Below the pieces are notes generated by a model. That model was given only the letters and a program-made list of their open reading frames with translations. It did no database searches and was not told where the DNA came from. Made by a program: the position numbers and the translations under genes. From Gammaproteobacteria bacterium (GTDB lineage: Bacteria > Pseudomonadota > Gammaproteobacteria > UBA4575), in the NCBI GenBank assembly GCA_011523795.1, contig WTFY01000010.1:283792-347791 (forward strand): 64,000 bases of DNA, given 5' to 3'. This document shows positions 41,650-44,385 of this stretch, in pieces. How positions within the stretch are numbered: position 1 is the stretch's first letter; each line of letters starts with the position of its first letter.

Positions 41650-42678
41650 GTGAGTGGCAAGCGGCATGGCATCTTTCGCACCGGGGCGTTGGTGACCTGT
41701 TTGCTGGCCTTGCTGGTGGTCGTGCTGGGTGCGTATGTGCGGCTGTCCGATGCCGGGCTGGGTTGTCCGGACTGGCCGGGGTGTTACGGCCACCTGCTCG
41801 GCGTCCCGGAATCGGCCCAGGAAGTCGAGCAGGCGAACACGGCCTACCCGGAACGCGCGGTCGAGACGGGCAAGGCCTGGAAGGAAGTGATTCACCGTTA
41901 TTTCGCGGGTGCACTGGGGCTGCTGATCGCATGGCTGGCCCTGCTGGCCTGGCGGAATCGCAAGGACCCCCGCCAGGCAGTCGGCATGCCGGTATTCCTG
42001 GTGGCACTGGTCGTGTTTCAGGCACTGCTGGGGATGTGGACCGTGACCCTGCTGCTCAAGCCTGTCATCGTAATGCTGCATCTGCTGGGAGGGCTGGCCA
42101 TCCTGTCCTTGCTCTGGTGGATGTACCTGGGTGCCGGTGGCGTCCGGCGGGGGGCCAGGCAGCCCGCGGGGCGCATCGTGTTGCTGGTGCTGGGGCTGGT
42201 GCTGCTGATAGGACAGATCATGCTGGGAGGCTGGACGAGTGCCAACTATGCGGCGCTGGCCTGTACCGACTTTCCCACCTGCCAGGGACAGTGGTGGCCA
42301 CAGGCAGACTTCAGGGAAGGCTTCGTGTTCTGGCGCGGGCTGGGCACCAATTATGAATTCGGGGTCCTGGACAACCCGGCCCGTACGGCGATTCACTTGA
42401 GCCACCGGGTCATGGCCGTCGTGGTTGCCCTCTACTGGCTGCTGCTGCTGGCCTTTTTCCTGGCCGGGTCCCGTACCGGTGCCGCGTTGCGCGCAGCCAG
42501 TGCGGTGACCCTGCTGTTGCTGGTCGCGCAGCTTACGCTGGGTGTATCCAATGTCGTGCTGCACCTGCCGGTAAGTGTCGCCGTATTGCACAACGGCGGT
42601 GCGGCCGTGTTGCTGCTTGCTGTGATTACCCTGATTTTCCTGGCACGGGGGGCACCCGAGAAGATTCGGCTCAGGTAG
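41650..42678 (+). CDS. ctaA: COX15/CtaA-family heme A synthase
   Basis: A 342-residue inner-membrane protein with eight predicted helices. It starts with a helix followed by the family signature YVRLSDAGLGCPDWPGCYG, has KEVIHRYFAG and VIVMLHLLGG in the first half, and HLSHRVMAVVV and VAVLHNGGAAV in the second, supplying the conserved heme-ligand histidines. It oxidises heme O to heme A for aa3-type oxidase. The start is GTG at 41650 preceded by a GGGGGA sequence. No ctaB or oxidase genes are adjacent. Its end overlaps the end of rpoH by 8 bases (convergent). Confidence 0.93.
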   Translation: MSGKRHGIFRTGALVTCLLALLVVVLGAYVRLSDAGLGCPDWPGCYGHLLGVPESAQEVEQANTAYPERAVETGKAWKEVIHRYFAGALGLLIAWLALLAWRNRKDPRQAVGMPVFLVALVVFQALLGMWTVTLLLKPVIVMLHLLGGLAILSLLWWMYLGAGGVRRGARQPAGRIVLLVLGLVLLIGQIMLGGWTSANYAALACTDFPTCQGQWWPQADFREGFVFWRGLGTNYEFGVLDNPARTAIHLSHRVMAVVVALYWLLLLAFFLAGSRTGAALRAASAVTLLLLVAQLTLGVSNVVLHLPVSVAVLHNGGAAVLLLAVITLIFLARGAPEKIRLR

Positions 42679-43531
42679 CGACGGCTGCCTTCAGGGTCTT
42701 GATCGCGCTGCTCTCCAGCTGGCGGACACGTTCTGCCGAGATCCCGTATTTCGCTGCAAGGTCCTGCAGGGTGTCCCGCTCATCCGTCAGCCAGCGCCGG
42801 GTGATGATGTCCCGGCTTCGTTCATCGAGTGTTTCCAGCGCGGTCTGCAGGGACTGTTCCTGGTACGCCTGCCAGTCCTGTTTTTCTGCCACGGTCTCCG
42901 GGTCGTTCTCCTGGTGGCTCAGGTACTCGGCCGGCGCGAGCCCGGTGGATTCCCGGCGGGGACCGTGCGCCACGTCAAAGCCGAGATCGGCGTCACGGAG
43001 GCGCTTTTCCATTTCGATCACGTCGCTGCTCTTCACGCCAAGGTCCCTGGCAACCGTATCGATTTCTTCCCGGTTCAGCCATGCGAGACGCTGTTTGGAG
43101 TTGCGCAGGTTGAAGAAAAGCTTGCGTTGCGCCTTGGTGGTGGCCACCTTGACGATACGCCAGTTGCGCAACACGAATTCATGGATTTCCGCGCGAATCC
43201 AGTGAACGGCAAACGAGACCAGGCGAACACCCTTGTGGGGGTCGAACCGGTTGACTGCCTTCATGAGGCCCACGTTGCCTTCCTGGATCAGGTCCGCCAG
43301 CGGCAGGCCATAACCGAGGTAACCGCGTGCCACATGGATGACGAAACGCAGGTTGTGAATGATCAGTGTCCGTGCGGCGTCGAGGTTGTTGTGCTCGTAC
43401 AGGCGCAATGCCAGGGCATGTTCCTCTTCCGTGTCCAGCACCGGAATCTGCAGGGCCGAAGCCATATAGCTCTCGAGGTTGGCCGTGGAGATGGCCGGTG
43501 ATGCCTGAAGGAATGTCATCGCGGTGGTCAT
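42671..43531 (-). CDS. rpoH: Heat-shock sigma factor RpoH (sigma-32)
   Basis: A 286-residue alternative sigma factor. It has the RpoH N-terminus (LESYMASALQIPVLDTEEEHALALRL), region 2 with RFVIHVARGYLGYGLPLADLIQEGN and VRLVSFAVHWIRAEIHEFV, the RpoH box just after it (AQRKLFFNLRNSKQRLAWL), and a region 4 ending VRQLESSAIKTLK. An AGGAAA Shine-Dalgarno precedes the ATG. The upstream region carries a perfect CIRCE operator overlapping a likely promoter, so transcription should be repressed by HrcA in addition to the usual control of RpoH. Confidence 0.97.
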   Translation of the reverse strand: MTTAMTFLQASPAISTANLESYMASALQIPVLDTEEEHALALRLYEHNNLDAARTLIIHNLRFVIHVARGYLGYGLPLADLIQEGNVGLMKAVNRFDPHKGVRLVSFAVHWIRAEIHEFVLRNWRIVKVATTKAQRKLFFNLRNSKQRLAWLNREEIDTVARDLGVKSSDVIEMEKRLRDADLGFDVAHGPRRESTGLAPAEYLSHQENDPETVAEKQDWQAYQEQSLQTALETLDERSRDIITRRWLTDERDTLQDLAAKYGISAERVRQLESSAIKTLKAAVAT

Positions 43532-43588
43532 GGGTTTCCTGTTTCTCCTGTATCGGGTGCCTGTTGCCTGGGTTCCACAGGGATTATT

Positions 43589-43615
43589 TTAGCACTCTTC
43601 ACCATAGAGTGCTAA
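43589..43615. promoter_or_regulatory. Perfect CIRCE operator (HrcA site) upstream of rpoH
   Basis: TTAGCACTC, nine bases, GAGTGCTAA: an exact 9-9-9 inverted repeat identical to the CIRCE consensus. It is 58-84 bases upstream of the rpoH start. On the rpoH strand the distal arm runs into TGCTAAAAT, an extended -10 element (hexamer 43586-43591), so bound HrcA would block the polymerase. No other gene starts nearby: the phosphoesterase on the other side ends at 43642. Confidence 0.92.
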
Positions 43616-43641
43616 CAATTTTTGCAGGCGCGCCACGGCAC

Positions 43642-44385
43642 TCAGACCTCCAGCAACGCGTCGGGGCTGAAGGCTCCGTTCAGGGAGTGCGGGGAATAGC
43701 CCCGCGGGTTGCAGACCACCCGCGTTCCGCGGAGCTCATAGTCGAAGGAATCATGTACGTGTCCGTGCAGCCAGAGGGCCGCACGGTCTCTCCCCATCAG
43801 GGACTCCAGGTTGCTGGCAAAGGCTGCCGACAGCAGGTCACCTGCATACTTCGCATGCACGGACCTGGGGGAAGGGGCATGGTGAGTGATCACCACGGTC
43901 GGGCCATCAAACGGCCTTGCCAGGGTGGCAGCCAGCCACTCGCGGCTCACCCGGTGCAGGTCCATGGACTGGTTTGGCGTGAAGGGTCTGCCGTGATTGC
44001 GGATGACCAGGTAGTCCGTCATGCACTGCCAGGCCTGGTGGATGGCCGGGTCGCGGTACGCCTCGCCCAGCAGGCTGAAATCCGTCCACAGGATGCTGCC
44101 CAGAAACCTCACCCCGCCGAGGACCATGCTGTCATCGTTCAGGACGTGAACATGGTCCGGAGCGAGGAATCTGAACTCATCCAGCAGGGACAGGTCATGG
44201 TGGTAGAACTCGTGGTTGCCGGGCACGTAGATGACCGGCCGGTCGGGAAACCGTTCCCGGGCCCAGTGCAGGCCCTGCATGCCCACCCCGATATCTCCGG
44301 CCAGGACGATGACTTCGGCCTCCGTCGGCCGGGGCCGGAAATCCTCGAACTCGATATGCAGGTCGCTCAGGAGCTGGATTTTCAT
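43642..44385 (-). CDS. Calcineurin-like metallophosphoesterase
   Basis: A 247-residue cytoplasmic metal-dependent phosphoesterase. Motifs in order are SDLHIEF, VLAGDIGVG, YVPGNHEFYHHD, VVITHHAPS and LWLHGHVHDSFDY, all metal-ligand motifs intact. Substrate unknown. It starts 18 bases after the ftsX stop and is on the same strand, so it belongs to the ftsYEX transcript. In most gammaproteobacteria rpoH directly follows ftsX; here this gene stands between them. Confidence 0.88.
   Translation of the reverse strand: MKIQLLSDLHIEFEDFRPRPTEAEVIVLAGDIGVGMQGLHWARERFPDRPVIYVPGNHEFYHHDLSLLDEFRFLAPDHVHVLNDDSMVLGGVRFLGSILWTDFSLLGEAYRDPAIHQAWQCMTDYLVIRNHGRPFTPNQSMDLHRVSREWLAATLARPFDGPTVVITHHAPSPRSVHAKYAGDLLSAAFASNLESLMGRDRAALWLHGHVHDSFDYELRGTRVVCNPRGYSPHSLNGAFSPDALLEV

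Follow-up and report, generated by a model that had tools for sequence, protein, structure and literature searches.

The closest described systems are the HrcA/CIRCE control of groESL, a CIRCE operator predicted upstream of rpoH in Geobacter sulfurreducens, and the sigma-E-dependent rpoH promoter of enteric bacteria. In Campylobacter, GroE stimulates the binding of HrcA, which is consistent with the titration model of B. subtilis (PMC8533110). The G. sulfurreducens prediction was made in 2004 and concerns a CIRCE whose arms match the consensus and which lies 51 bp upstream of rpoH; the genome also has hrcA and a CIRCE at groESL. G. metallireducens is not listed with such an rpoH site (PMC545781). 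A sigma-E promoter of rpoH is known in Salmonella (PMC4577112), and the enteric promoter of this kind is called P3 in E. coli.

Here we analyse a window of 64,000 nucleotides (the whole stretch of DNA under study) from a gammaproteobacterium, in which CIRCE likewise stands before rpoH. With the groESL system the locus shares the operator sequence and the repressor gene, and the window's genome carries a CIRCE at groESL too. G. sulfurreducens belongs to a distant lineage, and no sigma-E composite is described there (PMC545781). The enteric promoter is comparable in its sigma-E input, its box and spacing being found at rpoH of many relatives of the window's organism. It differs in that the left arm of the relatives' CIRCE lies inside the sigma-E promoter, and in that the window's own copy is without the -35; E. 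coli, unlike the window's genome, is without hrcA (control search). The link between CIRCE and rpoH therefore has a precedent, as it was predicted for G. sulfurreducens; the class-wide composite is put forward as the novel case. In the literature searched we found neither a nested sigma-E/CIRCE/sigma-70 promoter nor a gammaproteobacterial CIRCE at rpoH, and the study by Permina and Gelfand (2003), reportedly a survey of heat-shock regulons in beta, gamma and epsilon lineages, might hold one.

The operator and the predicted promoter of rpoH

The features of the locus are as follows.

42671..43531, minus strand: rpoH (sigma-32), 286 aa (TIGR02392 3.4e-115, NF005143 1.7e-120)
43586..43594, minus strand: extended -10 TGCTAAAAT of the predicted sigma-70 promoter, its TGCTAA being part of the CIRCE right arm
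43589..43615, minus strand: CIRCE operator, perfect 9-9-9, 18/18 arm bases
43589..43597, minus strand: right arm of CIRCE
43598..43606, minus strand: spacer of CIRCE
43607..43615, minus strand: left arm of CIRCE
43604..43608, minus strand: TCTAT, at the place taken in relatives by the sigma-E -10 (TCTAA)
43610..43615, minus strand: putative weak -35-like TTAGCA, 4/6 of TTGACA, 18 bp before TAAAAT
43625..43631, minus strand: GCGCCTG, a degenerate (3/7) sequence at the place taken in relatives by the sigma-E -35 (GGAACTT)

The original prediction held that a perfect CIRCE lies in front of rpoH and overlaps an extended -10, and both parts were borne out. The motif TTAGCACTC-N9-GAGTGCTAA occurs in the window as a single exact copy, which is also the sole match when up to 3 mismatches are allowed, and the gene behind it is rpoH by a clear score (TIGR02392, 384 bits against a cut-off of 323). 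On the minus strand, CIRCE positions 22-27 (TGCTAA) run on into AAT and so form the extended -10. The best -35 at a permitted spacing would be TTAGCA, the first six bases of the left arm; because it is weak, the strength of the promoter is a guess. The predicted start near 43579 would leave a leader of about 50 bases.

Two other explanations of the palindrome were rejected. A chance origin is ruled out by the rate in shuffled windows (0.02 CIRCE matches per window with 3 mismatches permitted) and by conservation in relatives. Service to the gene on the other side is ruled out by that gene's layout: a metallophosphoesterase gene (43642-44385, minus strand) reads in the same direction and stops before CIRCE, so that only rpoH lies downstream of the operator. 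This gene, which is calcineurin-like, is placed between ftsX and rpoH, which are usually direct neighbours.

hrcA, groESL and rpoE in the same genome

The window's assembly (2.07 Mb, 97.4% complete) encodes hrcA (TIGR00331, 321 bits against a cut-off of 197), on which the idea of HrcA control at rpoH depends, and the gene heads the order hrcA-grpE-dnaK. A search for further CIRCE copies at up to 3 mismatches returned one, an exact copy upstream of groES in groESL. At hrcA itself no CIRCE was found, the best candidate having 7 mismatches; across 41 hrcA upstream regions (L003, L201-L240), CIRCE at up to 4 mismatches precedes 22 of the genes, that of the window's genome not among them. Sigma-32 promoter scores at hrcA were 8-11 of 13, values obtained without a control. 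The genome also has rpoE and an RseA-like gene, adjoining each other.

Spread of CIRCE at rpoH and its link to hrcA

The survey covered the rpoH genes of 94 related genomes and of 80 named genome contigs, with 400 bp upstream of each gene searched for the operator. Each genome whose upstream DNA was readable contributed one rpoH to the counts (locus L144, at a contig end, was left out). With up to 3 mismatches allowed, CIRCE stands before rpoH in 60 of the 83 relatives counted, in addition to the window's genome, and in 40 of 80 named loci, including Thioalkalivibrio, Thiothrix, Alcanivorax, Methylocaldum, Plasticicumulans, Halieaceae and Silanimonas; by the same scan and threshold the Pseudomonas, Halomonas and Colwellia loci are without it. 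Reversed and scrambled control patterns never came within 3 mismatches. CIRCE at rpoH is thus common in hrcA-bearing Gammaproteobacteria, and the rarity implied by the original prediction, which regarded groESL or dnaK as the usual targets, is contradicted by these counts and by the G. sulfurreducens precedent (PMC545781).

The operator at rpoH also goes with the repressor gene. Both were present in 57 genomes, the operator only in 4, hrcA only in 4 (G031, G044, G055 and G089) and neither in 19 (Fisher p=1.9e-11); the Fisher tests in this study ignore kinship of the relatives, most genomes outside the window's family being from different families. Two of the four assemblies with CIRCE and without hrcA are 62% and 81% complete, so in those hrcA may simply be absent from the assembly.

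Some loci depart from the common form. Tandem operators occur at rpoH in L170 (G028) and L115, where a second CIRCE-like palindrome stands directly before the first. In L161 (G073, no hrcA found) the sequence upstream of rpoH (GTTAGCCCTC...CAGTGCTAATATC) looks like a CIRCE that has eroded, with additional bases separating its arms.

A putative nested promoter in relatives

An alignment of 96 distinct rpoH CIRCE sites shows which bases are kept. Both arms are near-invariant, with most bases above 90%, and the nine-base spacer is free except for its first three bases (T 70%, A 56%, A 67%). Two conserved blocks stand out from otherwise near-random flanks. The first, GGAACTT, occupies positions -16 to -10 relative to CIRCE and is followed after 16 bases by TCTAA, in which TC is the last two bases of the left arm and TAA the first three of the spacer. 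The second is positions 28-30 (A 67%, A 70%, T 95%), outside CIRCE at the end of the sigma-70 -10, where T30, the last T of the hexamer, is present in 91 of the 96 sites.

This pattern bears on whether the palindrome still works as a DNA operator. It might be a relic, kept only as its right arm forms the -10, with HrcA regulation of rpoH no longer meaningful. A -10-like TGCTARNAT stands alone in 11 of 62 CIRCE-less loci, compared with 1 in the reversed control, so a -10 can outlive its operator. However, both arms, the left one included, are near-invariant, the spacer is free beyond its first three bases, and the operator is gone in most genomes without hrcA, which makes a relic very unlikely. 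Alternatively, the palindrome might act in RNA, as a hairpin or stability element of the rpoH leader, since CIRCE in groE leaders can also influence mRNA stability. Here, however, the sigma-70 start is predicted downstream of CIRCE and a sigma-E start would fall inside it, so that the transcripts would not contain the whole hairpin; moreover, the sequence itself is conserved, beyond pairing, and tracks hrcA. Action in RNA is accordingly the most improbable of the explanations considered, and we keep to that of a DNA operator.

The GGAACTT box, the 16-bp spacing and TCTAA match the sigma-E consensus. The box turns up at a background rate of 1.4% per position, TAA at CIRCE positions 10-12 is associated with a GGAACTT -35 (p=1.6e-7), and the sigma-E-like -35, the CIRCE and the -10 T are found together in 62 of the 96 distinct sites. 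A sigma-E-like -35 (at least 5/7) occurs in 34 of 52 operator-bearing genomes with rpoE and in 0 of 9 without it (p=2.7e-4). The other 18 of the 52 are without the box, which would fit a box used by an activator or by a different ECF sigma factor; this is unlikely, given the agreement with the consensus in box, spacing and TCTAA, the complete absence of the box from the 9 rpoE-less genomes, and the established sigma-E control of rpoH in enteric bacteria (PMC4577112).

A sigma-E assignment of the box is therefore preferred, and two wider samples were compared with reversed controls. CIRCE-less rpoH genes (e.g., the Pseudomonas, Halomonas and Nitrococcus loci) have a sigma-E-like promoter more frequently than the reversed control. 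In 299 sampled genomes of the phylum, matches with an intact GAAC core came only from the class to which the window belongs, and the reversed control gave none. A composite of sigma-E box and CIRCE was also seen at L241 (G089:C8:47854-47898), before a gene that, judged by eye from its translation, appears to encode ClpB; the rpoH of that genome is itself without CIRCE.

The geometry at groES is different. There, CIRCE begins immediately downstream of the -10 in a promoter of TTGACA type, with TTGAC just upstream in 13 of 15 sites, T30 in 1 of 15 and no tendency of the spacer to begin with TAA, whereas the CIRCE at rpoH contains the -10 and in relatives also overlaps the sigma-E promoter. The rpoH site thus has a layout of its own and was not copied from a groES promoter.

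Taken over the hrcA-bearing Gammaproteobacteria, we consider it rather probable that the rpoH promoter is a compact three-way switch, in which one CIRCE palindrome serves two promoters: its left arm makes up part of one for sigma-E, and its right arm contributes the extended -10 of the sigma-70 promoter. The cytoplasmic folding state sensed by GroEL-HrcA would thereby gate both housekeeping and envelope-stress control of the heat-shock sigma factor.

The putative sigma-E input in the window's own genus

The window's rpoH does not carry GGAACTT-N16-TCTRA, having GCGCCTG and TCTAT at the equivalent positions, and no displaced sigma-E-like promoter at 9/12 or better was found within 500 bp upstream. 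Three readable relatives of the same genus are likewise without a good box (2-4/7), though rpoE is present. In the window's copy CIRCE and the extended -10 are intact. The genus thus seems to have retained the input from HrcA at rpoH and to have lost that from sigma-E.

Proposed regulation

The CIRCE in the window very probably works as an HrcA operator at the housekeeping promoter of rpoH, and rpoH and groESL are predicted to be released together on heat shock. At normal temperature, HrcA matured by GroEL would occupy CIRCE and keep sigma-70 RNA polymerase off the extended -10 formed with the right arm. Misfolded protein would draw off GroEL, the activity of HrcA would fall, and groESL and rpoH would be derepressed together, after which RpoH would drive its own regulon. 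The rise in GroEL would then restore HrcA and close the loop, if the GroEL feedback applies in this species. In many Gammaproteobacteria the 27-bp operator also covers the putative sigma-E promoter, and HrcA could there gate two promoters.

For the window's organism, repression of rpoH by HrcA is well supported by inference from the exact operator, its overlap with the promoter, the presence of hrcA and a groESL CIRCE in the genome, and the class-wide co-occurrence with hrcA. That part of the original prediction thus stands as a sequence-based inference. Its arrangement of the two heat-shock circuits in series is incomplete, as parallel control of groESL and rpoH with GroEL feedback is predicted instead; its picture of two circuits needs extending for the many relatives that show a further sigma-E-like input, one that the window's copy seems to be without.

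Significance

If HrcA controls rpoH, the two textbook heat-shock circuits of bacteria, that of the repressor (HrcA/GroEL) and that of the sigma factor (RpoH), are interconnected across much of the Gammaproteobacteria, and E. coli, being without hrcA, would be a poor guide to the lineages that bear it. The nested sigma-E/CIRCE/sigma-70 promoter of many relatives would be a compact, testable design that joins cytoplasmic and envelope stress signals.
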